Positions 3,037-44,763 of a stretch of 48,682 bases of DNA are shown piece after piece. The notes beneath the pieces are model-generated. The model saw nothing but the letters and a program-made list of their open reading frames with translations, ran no database searches and was not told the origin of the DNA. Source of the DNA: a virus; IMG/VR virus record IMGVR_UViG_3300034110_000402, positions 1 through 48,682 of that record; one strand, 5' to 3'. The position numbers and the translations under genes were made by a program. Numbering within the stretch: position 1 is the first letter of the stretch; each line of letters starts with the position of its first letter.

Positions 3037-3255
3037 CTACCTCCCGCCCACCGTGGGCCGCGCTGTCTTGATGATGTGGATTGCCAGGCCGAAGTTGATC
3101 AGCAGCCAGGCGCAAGTGCCGGCGAAGGCGTAGATCAGTGCCGCGGTGGTGCCGGTGCCAACAAGGTCAGGTCCGAGCCAGAAAAACCAGCCGATGGTTC
3201 CGACCAGGTACAGCAAAGCGCCCAGCACAATCAGGGTGAGTTTCGTTGCGAACAT
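3037..3255 (-). CDS. Small two-helix membrane protein
   Basis: A 72-residue protein with two predicted transmembrane segments, about residues 5-28 (hydrophobic, ending in GWFFWL) and 36-62. The C-terminus is short and basic, ending PTVGGR. I do not recognise a family. It stops two bases before the start of the DUF4224 gene and is preceded by a hairpin directly followed by AAGGA, the early-operon start cassette described in the findings. A role at the host membrane such as exclusion is possible but unsupported. Confidence 0.7.
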   Translation of the reverse strand: MFATKLTLIVLGALLYLVGTIGWFFWLGPDLVGTGTTAALIYAFAGTCAWLLINFGLAIHIIKTARPTVGGR

Positions 3256-3291
3256 GGGGTGTCCTTGCCGCGCTGGGCGGCAGAAGGTGGG

Positions 3292-3483
3292 TTACAGGTT
3301 TACGAACTGGCTGTTTGGGTCGAAAGGCTTGCCGTCAGGATCAGGGACCAGGGCCGGCACATTCTTTCGGATGAACTCCTCAAAGCACTGCGGGCAACTG
3401 ATCGTATTAGCAGTGCGAAGTTGGGTGTGCCCGGTGTATCCGCACACCAGGCACTTCATTGCCGTCGGAATAACGTAGGTCAT
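3292..3483 (-). CDS. Small zinc-ribbon phage protein
   Basis: A 63-residue protein with two CxxC pairs, CLVCG and CPQC, about 15 residues apart, which should form a zinc ribbon. The remainder is polar and ends DPNSQFVNL. The ATG at 3483 (MTYVIPTAMK) is preferred because GAGG lies seven bases upstream; an in-frame start 24 bases earlier has no such site. Function unknown; small zinc proteins of this sort are common in phage early operons. Confidence 0.65.
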   Translation of the reverse strand: MTYVIPTAMKCLVCGYTGHTQLRTANTISCPQCFEEFIRKNVPALVPDPDGKPFDPNSQFVNL

Positions 3484-9470: not shown

Positions 9471-9709
9471 AAAGCCTCCGCGAGTTTGCGCAGCGCTTCA
9501 CGCTCGGCCCGGGTAATGGGCGGCTTGCGGCGCTTGAGGATGGTTGCCGGGTCGATGAATTCCGAACGCTTCGCCGGGTCTGGATTGATCGCCGGGCTAT
9601 CGCCGATGGTGAGCTTGCCGCCGGCGGCCAGGTGCCGACGGACCTGACTGGAAAGCTCCAGCGCTTTCTCGCGCCGAAACTCGATGTCCGATTTCAGGTT
9701 GCTGATCAT
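9467..9709 (-). CDS. Small basic phage protein
   Basis: An 80-residue protein, helical and basic, with an ILKRRKPPITRAEREALRKLAEAL C-terminal half. No recognised domain. It lies between the YqaJ exonuclease and the 9000-9470 gene. Its start follows GGAGCCTGATC, and its stop overlaps the next start. Co-translation with the recombination genes suggests an accessory role in DNA metabolism, but this is inference. Confidence 0.65.
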   Translation of the reverse strand: MISNLKSDIEFRREKALELSSQVRRHLAAGGKLTIGDSPAINPDPAKRSEFIDPATILKRRKPPITRAEREALRKLAEAL

Positions 9710-9711
9710 GA

Positions 9712-10380
9712 TCAGGCTCCTAGGCGGTGGGCTTGCGCCCGGGCTTTGTCTGCGACTTCATCAACCATCCTGCCAAGCTCAAGATTGAACTGGACCAGCT
9801 CTTGATGAAGCATCGCGATGTACTCCTCATCGCGCTCAATGGTCTCGATATACAGCCGGCAGTCTTCATCCTGGCGTGGATCGAATGACAGGAAATCCCA
9901 CCACTCCCGGCCCGTGACGAACATGCAGCCCTGAACCTGCGGCTTATGTTCCTCGGGCATGCCTTCGAGCCAGGTGCGGACGTGGACGGCCTCATTGAAT
10001 GGGCATTTCGACTCGATACCCCCGTCCTCGCCAATCAATCCGTCCGGCGAACAGCCCAGCCAGTCGTATTTTGGATGAACTACGAAACCCGACTTGATGA
10101 CGCTATTACCAGTCAGGATTTCGTAGAAGTCGTGGCTCGACTGCTCAACCTCTGTTCCCCAGGCCATCGACTTGCTGCTGACCGAATGTTTCGATCGGTT
10201 GGCCAGGCGCTCAAAAGCCAGCTCGCGCATGTAGGTGGTACGGGCTGCAAGCGGCTTGCGTTTGCCGTGTTTGTCACGGTCGCCCCATGCAATAACATCC
10301 TTGAATCGGCTGGCGGTCAGTCGCCCGCTGCGGTCTTGGTGCCACTGCTCGGTGCGCTGAAGGTCTACAGAGGCGTTCAT
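9712..10380 (-). CDS. YqaJ-type phage recombination exonuclease
   Basis: A 222-residue nuclease of the YqaJ viral recombinase family (lambda Exo-like fold). It would degrade one strand of double-stranded ends for the adjacent annealing protein. Visible motifs are QWHQDRSGRLTASRF near the start, the GTEVE segment, GCSPDGLI supplying the conserved Asp, and GIESKCPF supplying the Glu-x-Lys pair. The ATG at 10380 (MNASVD) overlaps the RecT stop by ATGA; a longer upstream extension is rejected. Pairing with RecT is the classical two-component phage recombination system. Confidence 0.92.
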   Translation of the reverse strand: MNASVDLQRTEQWHQDRSGRLTASRFKDVIAWGDRDKHGKRKPLAARTTYMRELAFERLANRSKHSVSSKSMAWGTEVEQSSHDFYEILTGNSVIKSGFVVHPKYDWLGCSPDGLIGEDGGIESKCPFNEAVHVRTWLEGMPEEHKPQVQGCMFVTGREWWDFLSFDPRQDEDCRLYIETIERDEEYIAMLHQELVQFNLELGRMVDEVADKARAQAHRLGA

Positions 10381-19088: not shown

Positions 19089-19561
19089 AACCGATCATCG
19101 CTCACCAGATGCAACCGTGTCCGTACAGCTGCGTCTCTACCTGCCTTGCAATGATCGTTGGGCGGCCGGCGCAGGAAGTCATCAAAGAAATGCACCAGCC
19201 CTATCGCGACGGCGATCTGACCTTGCGCCAGATGCTGGAGCGCCTTGGCGTTGAGTACACGGCGTTCTTCAGTCTGGATTGCCCGCCGCTGGCAGATGAG
19301 GGTGTTTATCTGTGCACATCACCTTCTCTGAATATTGAAGGAGGTAACCATCAGATCCTGATCGAGGTCACTGACGAGGGCTACTTCGTCCTTGATCCGG
19401 TTCAAGGTCGCAACGACCGTAAATATTACGTAGCGCGCGGTCGCGGAGAGGGCATTCCGCTGGCGATCGACCTTGGCGGCTTCATCGTCGACGCCTTTAT
19501 CCCGCGCGACCATCTTATGGTCCGGCGCAACGGCACGCAACTGACGGAGGCTGCGGCATGA
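19085..19561 (+). CDS. C39-like cysteine peptidase
   Basis: A 158-residue protein with the hallmarks of a papain-like/C39 peptidase fold. An N-terminal Gln-x-x-x-Cys (MQPCPYSCVSTCLAMI) offers Gln8 and Cys15 or Cys11. A C39-like GGNHQILIEV supplies His, and YFVLDPVQG supplies Asp. C39 domains normally process peptides in exporters, but this one is free-standing, with no membrane segment and nestled in the replication operon. Substrate unknown; loss of activity cannot be excluded. Confidence 0.7.
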   Translation: MKPIIAHQMQPCPYSCVSTCLAMIVGRPAQEVIKEMHQPYRDGDLTLRQMLERLGVEYTAFFSLDCPPLADEGVYLCTSPSLNIEGGNHQILIEVTDEGYFVLDPVQGRNDRKYYVARGRGEGIPLAIDLGGFIVDAFIPRDHLMVRRNGTQLTEAAA

Positions 19562-19974
19562 CCAGCCTCCAGATCCGCAACGAATCGGACCGCGCTCGAG
19601 TTCTCGGCCATATCGCCGGAATGGACATCACCAGGCCCAAGAAGCTGGCCATCACCGAAGTGGACCGCAGCGGGGAGCAGAACAAGGCGCTGCACGCGGC
19701 GCTGGCCGATATCGCCGCACAGGTCGAGCACGCAGGGAAGAAGTGGGACGTCCTGATCTGGAAGCGCCTACTGACCGCCGCCTGGCTGCGCGAGTCAGGC
19801 GACCAGCCGCAGATGATCCCAGCGGTAGACGGCAACGGTTTTGACGTCATCTACGAGCGCACCAGCAAGCTCACCGTGAAGCAGTGCGGCGAGTTGATCG
19901 AGTGGGTTCACGCCTTCGGCGCCGAGCACCAGGTGCGCTGGACACAAAAGGACAACTGGGGAGGGCGCTACTGA
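19558..19974 (+). CDS. ninB: NinB recombination protein
   Basis: A 138-residue NinB/Orf family protein, a single-strand-binding recombination mediator that replaces RecFOR functions in lambda. Typical segments are RPKKLAITEVDRSGEQNKALHAALADIA in parts, WKRLLTAAWLRE, and the C-terminal LIEWVHAFGAEHQVRW. It overlaps the preceding gene by ATGA and the next by TGATG. Together with the NinG downstream it forms the usual nin-region recombination pair. Confidence 0.92.
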   Translation: MTSLQIRNESDRARVLGHIAGMDITRPKKLAITEVDRSGEQNKALHAALADIAAQVEHAGKKWDVLIWKRLLTAAWLRESGDQPQMIPAVDGNGFDVIYERTSKLTVKQCGELIEWVHAFGAEHQVRWTQKDNWGGRY

Positions 19975-20141: not shown

Positions 20142-20743
20142 GCATCGAACGAAAGCCGGCCAGGCCGAAGAAATGCCGAGTCGCTACGTGCAGGGCCTCA
20201 TTCGTCCCAGCGAAGCCGTTTCAAACCTGGTGCTCGCCAGACTGTGCAGTGGCGATCATCCGCCAGCGACAGGATAAGCAGCGAAAGTCGTTCGCAGAGC
20301 GCGAGCGCCGGGAGATCAAGGTCCGCAAGGAGAAGCTGAAGAGTAGGGCGGATCACCTTCGCGAAGCCCAGGCCGCGGTGAACGAGTACGTGCGCCTGCG
20401 CGACGCGCACCTGCCGTGCATCAGCTGCGACTCAATGCCGAACGATAACGACCTGATGACGGGTAGCCGGTGGGACGCTGGGCATTACCGATCCGTCGGG
20501 GCCTGCCCAGAACTGCGCTTCGAGCCGCTGAACATCCACCGCCAGTGCGTGAAGTGCAACCGCAACCTTTCCGGCAATGCCGTGGAGTACCGCATCCGCC
20601 TGGTGCAGCGCGTCGGCGCCGAGAAGGTGGCATGGCTGGAAGGGCTTCACCCTCCTTGCAAGTACACCGTGGAAGAGATCAAGACCATCAAAGCCAAGTA
20701 CCGGGCAATGACCAAAGAACTGAAAAAGGGGCAGGCAGCATGA
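20138..20743 (+). CDS. ninG: NinG recombination protein
   Basis: A 201-residue NinG/Rap family protein, a structure-specific endonuclease that resolves recombination joints. It has an N-terminal Cys cluster (CRVATC and WCSPDC), a charged helix (residues about 45-80), then CISCDSMPNDNDLMTGSRWDAGHY in parts and HRQCVKCNRNLSGN, which form the HNH-like zinc nuclease core. ATGA overlaps on both sides. Confidence 0.93.
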   Translation: MSIERKPARPKKCRVATCRASFVPAKPFQTWCSPDCAVAIIRQRQDKQRKSFAERERREIKVRKEKLKSRADHLREAQAAVNEYVRLRDAHLPCISCDSMPNDNDLMTGSRWDAGHYRSVGACPELRFEPLNIHRQCVKCNRNLSGNAVEYRIRLVQRVGAEKVAWLEGLHPPCKYTVEEIKTIKAKYRAMTKELKKGQAA

Positions 20744-21321
20744 AGATCAACTCAGCGCGCCAGGCGTGGCATGACTGCAAGTACAACCCGGCCCCCGGCC
20801 AGTCATCTGACGTTGTGCAGCTCGGTGTGGTGGTGCAGAACACCGAGCGTGGGCCAACGGCAAACCACGCGGTGCACGGGGCGCTGGCTGGGCATATCCA
20901 GTCGGCCATCGCTCGCCTGCACCCGCAGATCCGCGTCTTCGGTGACTTCATGTACGCCGCAGAGCAAAGCGACGACATCCGCGAGGCGGCGGAAGAGGTC
21001 GTGTTCCTGCTGGTGCAAAATCGGTCTCCACGCATGACGGCGGCCAAGCGCGAGAAACTGGAGTTCGTGGTGAAGGGCGTGATGCGCCGGTACCAACACA
21101 TGCACCAGGGTGGGCAGTCGTCCAACGCAGACCCACTCGCCAATGCCGAGAAGTTCCGGGCCTGGATGTGGCAGGTCTACGAAGTGCGCCTGGAGTCGTG
21201 CAATTGGGAGCGGGATTGGGGGGGCGTGCTGCAGCTGATCTTCGAGTGCTGCGAGGATCTGGACCGCCGCGCGCTGAGCCCCGTAGCAGCGGTTATCTAC
21301 GAAATGCGCGAGGCCGCATGA
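20740..21321 (+). CDS. Candidate late-gene regulator (Q position)
   Basis: A 193-residue protein starting MKINSARQAWHDC. It has helical segments, paired cysteines near the end (ESCNWERDW and ECCEDLD) and no recognised motif that I can name with certainty. It is the last gene of the rightward early operon, overlaps NinG by ATGA and is followed by a terminator and the late genes, the place normally held by the Q antiterminator. The function is inferred from position only. Confidence 0.6.
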   Translation: MKINSARQAWHDCKYNPAPGQSSDVVQLGVVVQNTERGPTANHAVHGALAGHIQSAIARLHPQIRVFGDFMYAAEQSDDIREAAEEVVFLLVQNRSPRMTAAKREKLEFVVKGVMRRYQHMHQGGQSSNADPLANAEKFRAWMWQVYEVRLESCNWERDWGGVLQLIFECCEDLDRRALSPVAAVIYEMREAA

Positions 21322-21700
21322 GGGCCTATTGCGTTCCCGTGCGGCTCATGGCATGATTTCGCCACTGTTAGAGTTTTGCCTTCGGCAACTTACTCGATGA
21401 TCCAAGAAAACCCGGCCACTGCGCCGGGTTTTTTATTGCCTGAGTTTTACCTGTAGCCAGGACAGCCTTCGGGAAGGCCTGGACGTCGATAGCCGGATAG
21501 TGCGACGTACGGAATCAACACCGGCAGCCCGTGCACTCTTACCTCACATGCTTGTGGAGTGGCGCGAGACAGGAAGGGCGCGATCGATGCATTGGGGCGT
21601 CGACACCTGGATCGTCTTCGGCAGACAGCGCGGAAAGACGCGCGCACCTATTCAGGGCCTCAGCATTCGCTGGGGCTTTTCTCGTTATGAGGTACAGCAA
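21322..21700 (+). promoter_or_regulatory. Early/late junction, no gene
   Basis: Between the Q-position gene and the 21701 start there is a small hairpin (TTGCC-TTC-GGCAA, 21376-21388), a strong terminator (21411-21435) and about 260 bases with no convincing gene. If late transcription is antiterminated, the late promoter and the site read by the antiterminator should be here. I see no consensus sigma-70 promoter that I would defend. Confidence 0.45.
21406..21435 (+). terminator. Terminator after early rightward operon
   Basis: CCCGGC-CACT-GCGCCGGG followed by six T residues. It would end early transcription, or act as the target of late antitermination. Confidence 0.85.
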
Positions 21701-22561
21701 ATGACCGATCCTCAAATCCAGGCACTGGCGGCCCAGGTTCAAGCGAACTCCGTCCAGATTGACGTCGAGTCCAGCGCGCGAGTGATTGCCGAAGAGCGGA
21801 TGGATAAGCGGATCGGTTCGCTGGAAGCTGCCATTGGTGGCCAAATCCAGAGCGCCAACTACGTGCCGGGCGTTTCCGGCTGGAAGCTCAACGCCCTAAC
21901 TGGTGACTTCGAAATCCACTCTTGCACTCTCGGTAGCGCGGCGAATGCGCCAGAGCGCCAGATGGTGTCGGTAGAAGTGGCCAGTTGGAGCAAGTACGAC
22001 CTGCCAAAGAACGCTGCCAACCTGCTCCAGTTCATGCAGGCCGAGTTGCAACGGGTTCCAGAAGAGTATCGCTACGTTGCCGAGTTCGAAGAATTCGATA
22101 CGAGCTACGGCGATGAGTCTTTCAGTTCCCGCCTGTTCCTGAGCTACGCCCGACTCGAAACCGAGGAAGAGATGGCCGATCGCCTGGAGAGGGCGAAGGT
22201 GGCAGGCACGCGGATCGTGAAAGCGGGCGGCTGCACTACGATAATTGTGGATGGTGTAGTGCGGGCCAGGGTCGGTAATCTGGCGGCGCCGGTGCCAGAG
22301 CCTGAGCCCTTCAAGGTCGATGGCGACCAGGTCTACTTCACCGACGCCGCGATTCAGGACGGCAGCATAGCGTCGAAATGGCCTGCTGCTTGGCGCGTGA
22401 AGGTGGAGCTCGGAGCGGATGGCAAGCCCTATGCTGCCGGGTTAGGCATGGGCCTTGGATCGAATGGAGAAAGCCGACCAGACATCATCGTGAAGGCCTC
22501 CCACATGGAAATCCTTCCTGATGGCTTGGTGAAGATCACTCAGGCGCCGAAGAAGTCCTGA
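21701..22561 (+). CDS. Free-standing protein built from tail-tip J modules
   Basis: A 286-residue protein starting at ATG 21701 after GAGG. Residues 1-45 are a helical, coiled-coil-like start. Three segments resemble the C-terminus of the phage's own J protein: 48-74 (IQSANYVPGVSGWKL with GDFEI), 203-223 (PFKVDGDQVYFTDAAIQDGSI) and 230-270 (WRVKVELGADGKPYAAGLG and RPDIIVKA). In J they occur in the opposite order. The middle part (80-195) is not in J. It lies before the lysis-like and packaging genes, far from the other tail genes. It may be a virion or host-range accessory protein; function unknown. Confidence 0.75.
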   Translation: MTDPQIQALAAQVQANSVQIDVESSARVIAEERMDKRIGSLEAAIGGQIQSANYVPGVSGWKLNALTGDFEIHSCTLGSAANAPERQMVSVEVASWSKYDLPKNAANLLQFMQAELQRVPEEYRYVAEFEEFDTSYGDESFSSRLFLSYARLETEEEMADRLERAKVAGTRIVKAGGCTTIIVDGVVRARVGNLAAPVPEPEPFKVDGDQVYFTDAAIQDGSIASKWPAAWRVKVELGADGKPYAAGLGMGLGSNGESRPDIIVKASHMEILPDGLVKITQAPKKS

Positions 22562-22576
22562 AGAAAAACCTATTTA

Positions 22577-22606
22577 TAGCCTCGACATGATCGGGGCCTT
22601 TTCGTT
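22577..22606 (+). terminator. Possible terminator
   Basis: GCCTCG-N7-CGGGGC (one G-T pair) followed by a T-rich stretch CTTTTCGTTTT, just after the J-module gene. A moderate terminator or attenuator. Confidence 0.5.
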
Positions 22607-22705: not shown

Positions 22706-23077
22706 ATGGATCCTACCGACCTCGGCCCAGGCACAGCTACCTGGCTGGGCGGTACGGGCCTCACCCTTGTGGGGGGCTTCCTGTGGCTGCGTAAATTCCT
22801 GTCGAAGGATGCCGCTGATCGGGCCATGGACAACGCCGACATCTTCACCCTTCGCCGGTTGAATGAGCTGCTGGACTCGGAGAGGGTCGCGCGCAAAGAG
22901 GCCGAGGCGCGTGCGGACCAGTTCGCCAAAGAACGGAACGAGCTCGCCGCGGCAGTGGGCCGCATGGAAGGCAAGATTGAAGGGCTGACCATTCAGGTGG
23001 CGCAGCTCACGGCAACCGTTACCAGTCAAAGCGCCGAGATCGCCCGCCTGCGTACGAAGTTGGGAGATGACAAGTGA
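22706..23077 (+). CDS. Holin-like membrane protein
   Basis: A 123-residue protein with one N-terminal transmembrane segment (about 13-28, TWLGGTGLTLVGGFLWL) and a long coiled coil (about 50-118). Proteins of this form precede the packaging genes in many Pseudomonas phages and are often annotated as holins. A single helix with a big cytoplasmic coiled coil is unlike the classical types, so the lysis role is tentative. The endolysin is far away (46177). Confidence 0.6.
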   Translation: MDPTDLGPGTATWLGGTGLTLVGGFLWLRKFLSKDAADRAMDNADIFTLRRLNELLDSERVARKEAEARADQFAKERNELAAAVGRMEGKIEGLTIQVAQLTATVTSQSAEIARLRTKLGDDK

Positions 23078-30383: not shown

Positions 30384-30785
30384 ATGACTGTTCAAAAAGA
30401 TAACCACATCGACCCGAACACTAAGGCCCGCTGGGGCTTCGCAGGTGGCGAGGGTGAGGTCACTGTCGGCCCGCAAACGGTCGGCGAAACCGGCGGCGTT
30501 AACCATGCGCGCACTCGCCTCGAAGATGGCGGAGGTCGCAACAGCGGCGGTGGTGTCGGCGACGCTGAAGTGTTGCGTACCCAGGTTTTGGATCTGCAAG
30601 GCCAGCTGGCGCAGGCTCAGTCCGATCTGGCTGCCGAGCGTGCGAAGAACGCCGATCCACGTGATAGCCTGACTATCCCGGAAATCAAAGAGCAGCTGGA
30701 CGCCATGGAAGTGAAGTATTCGTCCACTGCCAACAAAGCCGAACTGCTGGACCTGCTCAAGGCCCAGCCTGCTACCCAGGAGTAA
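30384..30785 (+). CDS. HeH/LEM-domain head protein
   Basis: A 133-residue protein with a Gly-rich N-terminus (about 18-55), a coiled-coil region (VLRTQVLDLQGQLAQAQ) and a C-terminal HeH/LEM-SAP-like helix-extension-helix (SLTIPEIKEQLDAMEVKY). It is located between capsid and connector genes, like lambda FI, which assists packaging. GGAG lies before the ATG. A role in head maturation is probable but unproven. Confidence 0.8.
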   Translation: MTVQKDNHIDPNTKARWGFAGGEGEVTVGPQTVGETGGVNHARTRLEDGGGRNSGGGVGDAEVLRTQVLDLQGQLAQAQSDLAAERAKNADPRDSLTIPEIKEQLDAMEVKYSSTANKAELLDLLKAQPATQE

Positions 30786-30788
30786 CCC

Positions 30789-31292
30789 ATGGCGCTCATC
30801 ATCGAGGACGGCACCGGCAAGCCTCACGCAGACAGCTACTCGACTGCTGCCGAACTGGTCAGTTACGCCGCGCGGTATGGCGTGACCATCCCAGCGGACC
30901 CGGTGGCACAGGAAGCTCTGCTTCGCCGAGCCGCCTTGGCGATGGACGGCATGAACTGGAAAGGATGCCGGGCGCACGGTGACCAGGCGCTTGCCTGGCC
31001 TCGCCGTGGCGTCAACATCGATGGCGAGAACAAGCCCTCCGACTACATTCCTGCACGCATCCAGTACGGGCAGATGGCCCTCGCGGGTGAAATCCACACT
31101 GACGACATTGATCCGATCGACAAGCGCAGAGGCGCTGTAACGCTGGAGCGAGTCGAAGGTGCGGTAACGCGCGAGTACGCCACCATCAGCAACACCAGCG
31201 GCCGATTGCTGCCGGCAGCGCCCGACAGGCCAAGCCGCACGCAATTTGCTGACTATCTTCAAAAGCGCGGTCTGTTCGCTATCCGCGCATAA
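30789..31292 (+). CDS. Head-tail connector, DnaT-like family
   Basis: A 167-residue protein of the family annotated as phage putative DnaT-like ssDNA-binding proteins, which in late operons corresponds to a head-tail adaptor. Visible elements are SYSTAAELVSYAARYGV, then LAMDGMNWKGCRAHGDQALAWPRRGV in parts and PARIQYGQMALAGEI. Position after the capsid gene supports the adaptor role. Confidence 0.8.
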   Translation: MALIIEDGTGKPHADSYSTAAELVSYAARYGVTIPADPVAQEALLRRAALAMDGMNWKGCRAHGDQALAWPRRGVNIDGENKPSDYIPARIQYGQMALAGEIHTDDIDPIDKRRGAVTLERVEGAVTREYATISNTSGRLLPAAPDRPSRTQFADYLQKRGLFAIRA

Positions 31293-40310: not shown

Positions 40311-43300
40311 ATGGGCGCAGCACAGAAGCTGGATATTCACGGTGCCAAAGGTGGCGAGAGCAAGCCCAAGTCTCCGGTAGAGGCGCCCGACAGCCTGCGC
40401 TCGACCAACGTGGCCAAGATCCTGATCGCCGTGGGGGAGGGTGAATTTGACGGCACGCCCACCGCGCGCGACATCTTCCTCGACAACACTCCCATCCAGG
40501 ATGCCAGCGGCAATTTCAACTTCACCAACGTGAAGTGGGACTGGCGGCCGGGCTCTGTGGAGCAGACCTACATTCCAGGCATCCCATCGGTCGACAACGA
40601 GACCTCTCTGAATATCGAGTTACGCAGCGGCACGCCGTGGGTTCAGTCGCTGACCAACTTGCAACTGTCGGCGGCTCGCATCCGCCTGGCCACGCCTCGA
40701 CTTGCGAGCCAGGACGCCGAAAACAACATCAACGGCTACCGTATCGAGTATGCGGTCGATGTGGCAACCGATGGCGGCGCGTATCAAGAGGTTCTGGTGG
40801 GCGCCATGGATGGCAAAACCACCACCCGTTACGAGCGCTCCTTGCGTATTGATCTGCCACCGGCTACCAGCGGCTGGCTGATCCGCGTTCGCCGCCTCAC
40901 ACCAAATTCGCAGAACACCGACAAAGTCGCAGACAGCCTCTTCATCGCCGGCTACACCCAGGTGATCGACGCGAAGCTGCGCTACCCAAACACCGCGCTG
41001 CTGTTCGTCGAGTTCGACGCCGAGCAATTCACCAACATCCCGGCCGTCACGGTGAAGTGCAAGGCCCGCCGCTGGCAGGTGCCGAGCAACTTCGACCCGG
41101 TAGCGCGCACCTACTCTGGCGCCTGGGACGGCACCATGAAAGAGGCCTGGACCAATAACCCGGCCTGGATCACCTACGGAATCTGCACCCAGGACCGTTT
41201 CGGCCTGGGCCGGCGCATCAAGCCGTGGATGGTGGACAAGTGGGAGCTGTACCGCATCGCGCAGTACTGCGACCAGATGGTGCCCAATGGTGCCGACGGC
41301 GTGGAGCCGCGCTTTCTTTGCGACATGAACCTGCAGGGTAAGGCCGACGCCTGGTCACTGCTGCGCGACATCTCCGGCATCTATCGCGGCATGACGTACT
41401 GGGCCCAGGGCCAGCTGGTCATGCAGGCCGATATGCCTCGGGCGCAGGACATCGACTATGTCTTCACCCGGTCCAACGTCATCGACGGCAAAATCTCGTA
41501 CGGCAGCGCATCGGCGAAGACCCGCTTTACACGCTGCCTGGTCAGCTACGACAACCCGCTCAACAACTACGACACCGACGTCACGGTCTATTCCGATCTG
41601 CCGCTCCAGCGCCGTCTGGGCGACAAGCCGACGGAAATCAGTGCCATTGGCTGTACCCGGGCATCTGAGGCCCAGCGCCGCGCTAAGTGGCTGGTGCTGA
41701 GCAATAATCAGGACCGCACCATCAGCTTCAGGACCGGCATGGAGGGCCGTATCCCGCTGCCTGGGTTTATTATCCCAGTCGCCGACTCGCTGCTGGCAGG
41801 CCGCGAGATCGGCGGGCGCATTGCAGCGGCGGCGGGGAAGGTCATCACCTTGGACCGCGATACCCTGGCCAAAGCGGGCGACCGGCTGGTGATCAACCTT
41901 CCAAATGGGCGTGCCGAGGGGCGCACTGTGGAAAGCGTGAGCGGCCGTAACGTAACTGTGACCGTTGCCTACAGCGAGCCGCCCGCGGTACAGCTCCAGT
42001 GGGCAATCGACGCTGATGACCTGGCCATTCCACTTTATAGAGTGATGCGGACCGCGCGAACGCCTGAGGGCGATTACGACATCAGTGCCTTGCAGTACGA
42101 GCCTGGGAAATTCGCCAGTATCGACACTGGCGCGCGCCTCGAAGAGCGCCCGATCAGCGTGATTCCAATCACCGTGGTTCCGGCGCCAGAAAGCGTGACC
42201 ATCACTTCGAACGTGTCGATCGACCAGGGCCTGGCCATCAGCACCATGAACATATCCTGGCCAGCCGTGACCGGAGCGGTCGCCTATGACATGGAATGGC
42301 GCAAGGACAGCGGCAACTGGATCAAGCTGCAGCGTACCGGCGCGACAAGCGTTGACGTCACCGGAATTTACTCGGGCGCCTACCTAGCCCGGGTTCGCTC
42401 GGTGAGCGCCTTTGAGATCTCTTCGATCTGGAAGAGTTCCAACCTGACCAATCTGGAAGGAAAGGTCGGCTTGCCGCCAGCGGTGTCGTCGCTCACCACC
42501 ACCAGCGAACTGTTCGGTATCGGTATCAAGTGGGGCTTCCCTGCTGGCGCCGAGGATACTCAGCGAACCGAGCTGTGGTATGGCCCGGCGAACAACCTCG
42601 CTGCGGCGACCAAGCTGGCCGACCTGGCATATCCGCAGGCCGATTACCGGATGCAGTCGCTTCTGGCGGGCGCAACCTTGTTCTTCTGGGCGCGCCTGGT
42701 GGACCGGACCGGCAACGTCGGGCCGTTCTATCCGGTGGTAGGCGGGGTGATGGGCCAGGCCAGCTCGGACGCCGGGCCGATCCTTGGCATGCTTGCCGGT
42801 AAGATCAGTAAAACCGAGCTCGGCCAAGACCTCCTCAGTGAGCTGGATGGGCTGCAGGACCAGATCGACGACTTGGATGCACTCGGCGGCTACGTGCCTA
42901 CCCAGGTTTACCTGAAAGGCCAGATGGTGGTGGAGGCGGACCGCATCTACCAAGCCAAAGTGAATGTCCCGGTCAGCAACCCACCGCCGAACACCACTTA
43001 CTGGCTGGACGTTGGTCAATCGGTCGAGACGGCCAATGGACTGGCGCAGCAGGTGGCGACTAACACCGCGGACATCACAGAGCTCGATGGCGTTGTCACG
43101 GCCCAGGCCAGCACTACCAATGCGCTGCGTGCGTCCGCACGCGACGACAGCGGCAGCGGGGCAAAGGCTGATGCTCTTAAGGGGTGGGCCAGCACCGTTG
43201 CGATCTTCGAAGAGAGCAAAGTCCGAGCTACCGCCATTGAAGCGGAGGCTAGCAAGACCACGCAACTGCAAGCCACGGTCGGTCAGAACACCTCGGCAAT

Positions 43301-43772
43301 TCAAGAGACCTCTTCGGCTCTGGCCAACACCAACGGGCAACTGCAGACGCTGTGGTCGGTGAAAATGGAAACCACGGCTGGCGGCCAGAAGTACGCCGCA
43401 TCGTTCGGCCTGGGCCTGCAGGTTGACCCGTCCGGTGTTTCTTCGCAGTTCGTCGTAAGGGCTGACACGTTCATGCTGCTGAACTTGGCGAACGGTGTGC
43501 CGGTTTCGCCGTTCTCGGTCGCTGGCGGGCAGACTTTTATCAGTTCAGCCTTCATCCAGGACGGCACCATTACCAACGCCAAAATCGGCAATTACATCCA
43601 GTCGAACAACTACGCCGCAGGGCTATCGGGGTGGAAGCTGTTCTTCGACGGGACCTTCGAGATCAATGGCTCGTTCGGCGGGCAGGCCCGACAGGTCATC
43701 AATAACCGAGGAGGCAAAGTTTTCGATGAGAACGGTGTGAAGCGCTATCAGTGGGGGGATCTTTCCGCATGA
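40311..43772 (+). CDS. Tail tip / host specificity protein J
   Basis: A 1153-residue central tail-tip protein. The N-terminal two thirds match lambda J (LRSTNVAKILIAVGEGEFDG, then FTNVKWDWRPGSVEQTYI). Fibronectin-like repeats lie at about 640-800. A DUF1983-type region (about 900-1015) is followed by a C-terminal set of modules: 1014-1050 (WSVKMETT through FGLGL), about 1068-1090 (PFSVAGGQTFISSAFIQDG) and about 1095-1130 (IQSNNYAAGLSGWKL, FEING). J determines receptor binding with the fibres downstream. Confidence 0.94.
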   Translation: MGAAQKLDIHGAKGGESKPKSPVEAPDSLRSTNVAKILIAVGEGEFDGTPTARDIFLDNTPIQDASGNFNFTNVKWDWRPGSVEQTYIPGIPSVDNETSLNIELRSGTPWVQSLTNLQLSAARIRLATPRLASQDAENNINGYRIEYAVDVATDGGAYQEVLVGAMDGKTTTRYERSLRIDLPPATSGWLIRVRRLTPNSQNTDKVADSLFIAGYTQVIDAKLRYPNTALLFVEFDAEQFTNIPAVTVKCKARRWQVPSNFDPVARTYSGAWDGTMKEAWTNNPAWITYGICTQDRFGLGRRIKPWMVDKWELYRIAQYCDQMVPNGADGVEPRFLCDMNLQGKADAWSLLRDISGIYRGMTYWAQGQLVMQADMPRAQDIDYVFTRSNVIDGKISYGSASAKTRFTRCLVSYDNPLNNYDTDVTVYSDLPLQRRLGDKPTEISAIGCTRASEAQRRAKWLVLSNNQDRTISFRTGMEGRIPLPGFIIPVADSLLAGREIGGRIAAAAGKVITLDRDTLAKAGDRLVINLPNGRAEGRTVESVSGRNVTVTVAYSEPPAVQLQWAIDADDLAIPLYRVMRTARTPEGDYDISALQYEPGKFASIDTGARLEERPISVIPITVVPAPESVTITSNVSIDQGLAISTMNISWPAVTGAVAYDMEWRKDSGNWIKLQRTGATSVDVTGIYSGAYLARVRSVSAFEISSIWKSSNLTNLEGKVGLPPAVSSLTTTSELFGIGIKWGFPAGAEDTQRTELWYGPANNLAAATKLADLAYPQADYRMQSLLAGATLFFWARLVDRTGNVGPFYPVVGGVMGQASSDAGPILGMLAGKISKTELGQDLLSELDGLQDQIDDLDALGGYVPTQVYLKGQMVVEADRIYQAKVNVPVSNPPPNTTYWLDVGQSVETANGLAQQVATNTADITELDGVVTAQASTTNALRASARDDSGSGAKADALKGWASTVAIFEESKVRATAIEAEASKTTQLQATVGQNTSAIQETSSALANTNGQLQTLWSVKMETTAGGQKYAASFGLGLQVDPSGVSSQFVVRADTFMLLNLANGVPVSPFSVAGGQTFISSAFIQDGTITNAKIGNYIQSNNYAAGLSGWKLFFDGTFEINGSFGGQARQVINNRGGKVFDENGVKRYQWGDLSA

Positions 43773-44107
43773 GTTATGGAGTAAGAGCATGGGGGCCTGA
43801 TGGCCTACTTGAACTTGATGAAAATTCATTCACGGTAAGGATTGTGTATACCGCCATTGTTCAGAAAGCATCCGGTGAGAATAGGACAAGGTACATACCC
43901 ATTCCTGGAATAGCGCCTGAAACACATTCAGCCGTGTGTTTTCCAGCTGGCAGCTATGACACTTCAGCTCAAAACATTGCTTCAATCCAGTACACACCCA
44001 TTATTAGCAATGGCGGGCTGACACTTCACTTTGGCCATCCAGGATCGCGTGAGGGGGCGCCTCTTGGCATTGGGGCGCAAAGGCTTATGGTGGTGAGGTA
44101 TCGATAA
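43769..44107 (+). CDS. Fibre-region protein 1
   Basis: A 112-residue protein starting MSYGVRAWGPDGLLELDENSFTV in parts, beta-rich, overlapping the J stop by ATGA. The sequence is clearly richer in A+T than J. Proteins of this sort follow J in Pseudomonas siphophages as tail-tip accessory pieces. No enzyme motif. Confidence 0.7.
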   Translation: MSYGVRAWGPDGLLELDENSFTVRIVYTAIVQKASGENRTRYIPIPGIAPETHSAVCFPAGSYDTSAQNIASIQYTPIISNGGLTLHFGHPGSREGAPLGIGAQRLMVVRYR

Positions 44108-44763
44108 TGTCTTTTGGTGTAGAGTTCTCAAATAATAATGATGTTGTTGTGCTGGACTCAGAGTTCGCACGACTCTGCGTTTTACACAGGGGGAACTGGT
44201 CGAATGGTGGATCTGGAGTCTCTGTTGCATTTCCATCAACAATTACCAGTTCTGAGCCTCCACTTGTATTTGTTCGAGCGGACCAGTCCTGCACTATGTG
44301 TTTTTGTTTGATCAACGGATCCCCTGGCGCGTGGACTGGGTTTTCTTTTCGGGGAATTGTAGGGCAAACATCTTCGGGGAAATGGTTCGCTGCTGCATTC
44401 CAGTCGGCGCCTGTAGCGAACTATGGATTTCGAATTTGGGATGCCTCGTCGAAACTTTTGTTCGATAGTGCAGCCCCGGCGGCGCAATTCACAAGAACAA
44501 TCACAGCATGGACCTATCTTGGGTCCGAGCAAACTAGCCAAGGAGTGTACAGACTTAGCTGGACTGCAAATAGTCCACTGAATACCGGTGATTATTTAAT
44601 GCTGAACAACATTGCTATGGATGTGGCAGGCCTTACTTCCAGGCAGGGCAACCAGTACGCAGTATGGGATTTCTCTAACAATCGGCTTGTGATGCAAGTG
44701 ATTGGGGTAGATATATCGTCATCTTTTTACACGCCGGTTGTATTCGCCAGGCCGGTTTCTTGA
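44107..44763 (+). CDS. Fibre-region protein 2
   Basis: A 218-residue beta-rich protein with repeating aromatic strands, starting MSFGVEFSNNNDVVVLDSEFA in parts and sharing its MSxGV opening with the preceding gene. It starts where the previous gene ends. Low GC and no recognised domain. A component of the tail tip or a receptor-binding accessory is likely. Confidence 0.7.
   Translation: MSFGVEFSNNNDVVVLDSEFARLCVLHRGNWSNGGSGVSVAFPSTITSSEPPLVFVRADQSCTMCFCLINGSPGAWTGFSFRGIVGQTSSGKWFAAAFQSAPVANYGFRIWDASSKLLFDSAAPAAQFTRTITAWTYLGSEQTSQGVYRLSWTANSPLNTGDYLMLNNIAMDVAGLTSRQGNQYAVWDFSNNRLVMQVIGVDISSSFYTPVVFARPVS

Follow-up and report, generated by a model that had tools for sequence, protein, structure and literature searches.

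The window analysed here, a stretch of viral DNA of 48,682 nucleotides, encodes a stand-alone protein that carries the modules of the fibre part of the J tail-tip protein in the opposite order to J itself. We use the label SA for this protein, encoded at positions 21701-22561, and for its relatives (Table 1). A preliminary description had noticed three J-like segments in SA, running in the opposite order to those of J, and both observations are borne out by our searches. PF09327 (Phage_Tail_Tip, the J central straight fibre; formerly DUF1983) is the only Pfam domain above cut-off in SA; it is matched with 58.5 bits against a curated cut-off of 22 (E 8.3e-16) and in three pieces, whereas in the J protein of the window it forms a single collinear match over residues 996-1132. 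In BLASTP, SA and J align in three distinct HSPs whose order is crossed (E 1e-6, 7e-5 and 3e-4). The profile alignment that had been proposed as a check gives the same picture: we built HMMs for five segments of J (S, the start of the shaft; A; B; C; and D, the end) from 18 J proteins alone, and these detect C, B and A in SA. In the J protein of the window, the modules A, B and C occupy residues ~1009-1060, ~1061-1092 and ~1090-1122, respectively. No further matches to SA were found in its own record besides these J segments. Judged from such profiles, the similarity between the modules of SA and J goes beyond chance. The placement of SA 18 kb upstream of J, at the junction of early and late genes, is confirmed as well, the actual distance being 17.7 kb.

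Table 1. Features of the SA locus and of J in the window (positions in nucleotides; residue numbers are those of the SA protein).
Feature	Position	Strand	Remarks
Q-position gene (phrog_3373)	20740..21321	+	putative antiterminator by position
Strong terminator after Q-position gene	21405..21434	+	MFE -18.4, z -4.3
Proteo-phage-1 RNA (RF03044), suggested late leader	21451..21529	+	79.3 bits vs gathering cut-off 42
Upstream flanking-repeat copy	21647..21681	+	11-bp terminator-like hairpin with T run, z -3.6; stem ends 21 nt 5' of ATG
SA gene	21701..22561	+	286 aa; order helix-C-X-(D?)-B-A
SA N-terminal predicted helix, residues 1-44	21701..21832	+	AlphaFold2 helix 4-44, pLDDT 59-87 by block; alignment
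SA module C, residues 45-74	21833..21922	+	HMM from J proteins: 42.6 bits, E 5e-14
SA domain X, residues ~85-165	21953..22195	+	alpha/beta prediction; absent from J
SA possible module D, residues 170-192	22208..22276	+	by eye; weak HMM support
SA module B, residues 203-224	22307..22372	+	HMM from J proteins: 21.2 bits, E 2e-7
SA module A, residues 229-257	22385..22471	+	HMM from J proteins: 21.0 bits, E 3e-7
Downstream flanking-repeat copy	22569..22603	+	terminator-like hairpin 3' of SA stop codon; imperfect repeat of the upstream one
hol-like gene (phrog_2658), next gene 3' of SA	22706..23077	+	PHROG match
J tail-tip protein	40311..43772	+	1153 aa; C-terminal order S-A-B-C-D

The reversed order is an inherited trait of the whole family. 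Wherever the HMMs derived from J find the modules, they follow one another as C, B, A and then S, and this holds for all 29 SA proteins inspected; module C is present in each of them at E 3e-9 or better, while module A is missing in L017, L091 and L083, and module B in Aurca01. The S segment, which precedes A in J, sits after A in the longer SA relatives, whose arrangement is thus that of J mirrored (C-B-A-S vs S-A-B-C); the SA protein of the window is without S. In 16 records that were searched whole, the pieces of SA map in turn to positions 94-134, 56-94 and 12-63 of PF09327, some of these pieces scoring below threshold, whereas the J proteins of the same records match the domain collinearly and nearly at full length unless the end of the record cuts J. 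A collinear A-B-C match along PF09327 was not found in SA. Because the SA family is homologous throughout, the reversal counts as one evolutionary event and not as 29 independent ones, and since four blocks can be arranged in 24 ways, of which the exact inversion is one, it may be an accident. SA suggests that the units of the J fibre tolerate permutation.

The most conserved part of the SA family is module C, which contains the invariant columns of the alignment. In the window it reads IQSANYVPGVSGWKL...GDFEI, corresponding to the pattern IQSxNYVPGVSGWKL...FEI, while module B is PFKVDGDQVYFTDAAIQDGSI and module A WRVKVELGADGKPYAAGLGMGL. The possible module D was recognized by eye from its likeness to the final residues of J (DGVVRARVGNL / ENGVKRYQWGDL); its HMM scores one SA relative at 4 bits. 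An N-terminal helix (residues 1-44 in the window) is found in the alignment in some relatives only, and a Shine-Dalgarno-like TATGAGG lies directly 5' of the ATG. All 24 relatives searched match PF09327 at E 0.01 or better, and they likewise match PHROG 18217 (up to 2.5e-77), as does the SA protein of the window (2e-26). This PHROG, for which no function is annotated, represents the SA family, and the normal J of the window is also matched, more weakly. Searches with Pfam and PHROG profiles revealed neither hub nor FNIII domains in SA, no known virion-attachment domain was found in it, and a secretion or export signal is not apparent by eye. PADLOC-DB gave no match at E 0.1 for the SA protein of the window and two relatives.

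Between modules C and B, most members of the family carry domain X (~85 aa), which has no match to J. Its profile hits exactly the eight SA-carrying genomes among 299 Pseudomonas genomes; outside SA genes, it was found neither in these genomes nor in GenBank phages, and its sequence has no match in the PDB. SA relatives from L025, L074, L078, L080, L083, Cruim01, Medea1 and Aurca01 are without X. The domain is predicted to be a compact alpha/beta fold, with a pLDDT mostly of 83-92 over residues 90-130. Its structure weakly resembles that of small phage proteins whose function is not known (best E 0.01). We also predicted the folds of the shared segments, since unrelated folds would have refuted the preliminary description. 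The single-chain model of SA is confident for the N-terminal helix and X only; modules A and B reach a pLDDT of about 38-53, the best match of the model to gpJ has an E of 0.9, and there is no significant match in the PDB. A single-chain model of the J C-terminus does recover the lambda central straight fibre (CSF, 8xcj) at E 1e-5, despite low model confidence. The lambda CSF is a beta-sheet prism formed by the gpJ trimer (PMC11101478), and because the fibre is trimeric, a single-chain prediction shows a fold of this type poorly. It is on sequence profiles that the homology of SA and J rests, and by profile the PDB relatives of the SA modules are J-type tail-tip proteins (8xcj, 9l9p, 9ze4, 9wca).

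The coding sequence of SA is under purifying selection. Across 120 pairs, the median dN/dS ratio is 0.29 and the highest is 0.65, values that are somewhat lowered by the use of well-aligned blocks only. In the alignment, the C-terminal halves of SA are highly mosaic, and module C appears as the conserved anchor of an otherwise mosaic protein. Within the family, C modules are more similar to each other than to J (0.66 vs 0.51 in normalised score), which is not the case for the B and A modules. A signature of exchange with J is not visible in 22 phages, where the modules of SA are no closer to their own J than to other J proteins (permutation p = 0.78, 0.82 and 0.08) and where the longest SA-J DNA identity averages 11.3 bp for the own J and 11.1 bp for other J proteins. 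In the window itself, this longest identity is 13 bp, which is at chance level.

SA relatives were drawn from IMG/VR, from GTDB genomes and from one permissive search; the scans returned 22 viral contigs and three Pseudomonas genomes. A tblastn search with SA gave no match in GenBank phages at E 1e-5 and none in plasmids, and in 369 genomes of the class, a search for relatives outside Pseudomonas matched only the centre genome itself at E 1e-8. Within Pseudomonas siphophages the family is sporadic: SA is found in eight of 299 species genomes, with a stop codon within one of these eight matches, and in three of 31 phages whose J is similar to that of the window. It occupies two sites, both in the late region; synteny was assigned for part of the relatives, as some have few reference genes nearby. 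At site 1, that of the window, SA lies 3' of ninG and the Q-position gene (phrog_3373) and 5' of the hol-like gene. At site 2, it lies between the genes for the tail terminator and the major tail protein, ~10-20 bp behind the former; this site is used in prophages of the P. syringae type and in three phage isolates, Medea1, Cruim01 and Aurca01. No record has two copies of SA, and J is present wherever the record reaches it. SA is dispensable across phages, as viable phages without SA at both sites exist. Empty sites are seen in phiPSA1, psageK9, L200, L218, L219 and others, and at site 1 of Medea1, and both sites are empty in phiPSA1, psageK9, MR13 and phiAH14a. For phiAH14a the virion proteome has been published (PMC4936722), and SA is annotated at neither of its sites; our search turned up no proteome of an SA-carrying phage.

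Two records show peculiarities of J. In Aurca01 (PP179334.1), the J fibre domain at 19449-19865 lies in an open frame of 218 aa, compared with about 1110 aa in Cruim01, so that J seems to be split or frameshifted in this record. The L010 record (G005) contains, besides SA, two PF09327 domains (30575-30943 and 58416-58820), both full-length and within long open frames; perhaps two prophages are joined in one record, or there is a second J.

In the window, SA forms a cassette bounded by terminator hairpins. The pattern of the flanking repeat fits exactly two places in the whole window, namely the two copies on either side of SA (chance expectation 0.00). The repeat is clear in the window. Of 17 further site-1 relatives tested, about seven show it clearly as well, most of them with the short C-terminus, and it was not seen in the remainder. 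In phages without SA (L200, L206, L219 and others), the left and right flanks of the cassette join over one common hairpin of ~36 bp, and in L218, which is also without SA, the same junction leads directly into the hol-like gene. In 20 of 21 site-1 relatives, a perfect stem of 10-11 bp ends 19-23 nt 5' of the ATG, and between these relatives base pairs of the hairpin are exchanged on both sides. Such a short distance leaves no room for a promoter between the hairpin and SA, and a scan for promoter consensus sequences found none in front of the gene. Transcription must therefore cross two terminators to reach SA, and late antiterminated read-through should be needed. In lambdoid phages, the late antiterminator lets the polymerase pass terminators, and the gene in the Q position of PseuP_222 is annotated as anti-termination.

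The Proteo-phage-1 RNA, which lies between the two terminators in front of SA, has matches in 80 of the 299 Pseudomonas genomes, 72 of them over the cut-off. At the 30 loci that we read, it often follows ninG or the Q-position gene, with a holin, endolysin, hol-like or cargo gene coming next. This position suggests that the RNA belongs to the late leader; a role as an antitermination RNA or as a late-promoter RNA is possible. We had considered this RNA and SA as a single cassette but rejected the idea, as most of the RNA-bearing genomes are without SA. In L015, two tRNA genes (9590-9741) lie directly 5' of the RNA and SA. The slot that SA fills at site 1 holds other genes elsewhere. In PseuP_222 it contains a 305-aa protein (L094:2991-3908), tried as a candidate SA relative and found to be unrelated; its gene lies between two terminators, it has no Pfam or PADLOC match, and the hol-like gene that follows carries the annotation 'tail needle protein'. 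In L203, the first late slot after the Proteo-phage-1 RNA encodes a protein of 280 aa that has a B-lectin domain (PF01453; L203:2047-2889) and may be a prophage-borne lectin-type bacteriocin.

We tentatively favour the reading that SA is an optional late mini-fibre that would act at the tail tip or while the tip is being assembled, a reading that is quite possibly correct though somewhat short of probable. Such a mini-fibre would combine the modules of the J central straight fibre, in rearranged form, with the private domain X, would be made solely when antiterminated late RNA polymerase passes the terminators ahead of the gene, and would fold as a trimer like the fibre of J. At the tail tip, it might then be a minor component of the virion, or have J and the other proteins of the tip as its targets while the tail is assembled. 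The preliminary description had offered an extra tail component as one of three roles for SA; unproven as it is, this is the best of the three, given the tail-fibre modules, the late region and site 2. All recognisable parts of SA except X are J fibre modules, their PDB relatives being J-type tip proteins that in lambda form the trimeric prism (PMC11101478). Both sites lie in the late region, with site 2 inside the tail genes, and at site 1 the hairpins leave no space for an own promoter. Purifying selection acts on a gene that occurs once per record alongside J, and its absence from both sites in four phages and its presence in just three of 31 with a similar J fit an optional component. The poor models of modules A and B and the lack of a recognisable virion-attachment domain speak against the mini-fibre, and because the site-1 slot holds unrelated cargo in L203 and PseuP_222, position by itself need not mean a role in the tail.

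Among the alternatives, an interference with assembly, in which SA would stay in the cytoplasm late in infection, mix with J or the small tip proteins of a competitor induced or infecting at the same time, and thereby give that competitor defective tails, is rather unlikely but the most credible. SA keeps fibre modules without a hub; as the fibre of J is a trimer (PMC11101478), mixed trimers are conceivable; and SA is optional and sporadic like competition genes, with modules that do not track those of its own J; in-register mixed trimers should, however, be hard to form with a reversed order, and no defence family is matched. We consider it improbable that SA, as the first product of the late transcript, is freed by lysis and then attaches to the surface receptors of cells nearby or to the phages of these cells. 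In some lambdoid phages, the slot after the antiterminator position, which is what site 1 is, encodes proteins that lysis releases, and the B-lectin gene of L203 sits in that same slot; yet site 2, inside the tail gene cluster, has no special fit to such a role, and no receptor-binding domain is recognised in SA. About as improbable, or slightly more so, is a selfish cassette or debris, a by-product of module shuffling without function for the phage: the mosaic C-terminal halves, the sporadic presence and the flanking hairpin repeats, a simple route for gain and loss, would all suit it, but the reading frame is kept with a dN/dS of about 0.3, module C hardly varies between distant relatives or between the two sites, and a stop interrupts just one of eight matches in the 299-genome sample.

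The other two roles raised by the preliminary description fare worse. That SA, expressed in the uninduced lysogen, serves as a decoy or exclusion factor against superinfecting phages might be suspected of an optional gene of temperate phages that contains tail-tip modules, but we regard it as very improbable: with the hairpin ending about 21 nt 5' of the ATG, a promoter downstream of it would have no space, no export signal is apparent by eye, and relatives have SA inside the tail gene cluster. That SA donates sequence to J, which would vary through recombination with it, is the least credible reading of all. SA and J do have modules in common, but DNA identity with the own J does not exceed chance, either in the window or in the set of 22 phages, the modules show no special likeness to the own J, and the reversed order prevents a double crossover that would swap the whole C-terminus.

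Returning to the mini-fibre, the mirrored order might itself be functional if the SA fibre docked end-to-end with that of J, at the tip of the latter and with the two C modules facing each other, which we think distinctly improbable. Were it true, docked SA would be a removable cap or extension altering what the tip binds, that is, a plug-in adaptor in the form of an optional cassette. Directly 3' of J lie two small genes (window 43751-44763; phrog_7961 and phrog_3370) with a possible tip or adhesin role, whose products are possible partners of SA.

The family was already known as PHROG 18217 and its domain as PF09327; in the open-access literature, we found no description of the rearranged stand-alone proteins, of their two sites or of the terminator-bounded cassette. 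J sets the host range in lambda-type phages. A selected, optional gene with J fibre modules in inverse order at two late sites points to another, separable factor involved in the tail tip or in how the tip is assembled. The clean boundaries of the cassette make its precise deletion simple, and the function of SA is therefore directly testable. For annotation, the family holds a warning: Medea1_0020 (QVW29087.1; L063:6001-6615), a rearranged SA of 204 aa, has been given the name 'host specificity protein J'. This is a misannotation, as the true J fibre domain of Medea1 is located at 3066-3482 of the same record.

Compared with known systems, SA shares all three module types, each with significant similarity, with the PF09327 region of lambda-type J, and the C-terminus of J in the window matches the lambda CSF (8xcj). 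It differs from J in being a stand-alone protein of 286 aa without a hub, in the order C-B-A(-S) instead of S-A-B-C, and in the private domain X that follows C, whereas J combines hub, FNIII domains and fibre in ~1100 aa. Medea1_0020, Cruim01_00012 and Aurca01_00011 are, like the SA protein of the window, stand-alone and of reversed order, with the C module at the extreme N-terminus in their case; unlike it, they reside at site 2 and have no X domain. With the morons and late accessory genes of lambdoid phages, SA has in common that it is optional, inserted between conserved genes, flanked by terminators and matched by empty sites in other phages. Unlike morons, it has no promoter of its own 3' of the leading terminator, and its expression seems to be tied to late antitermination.
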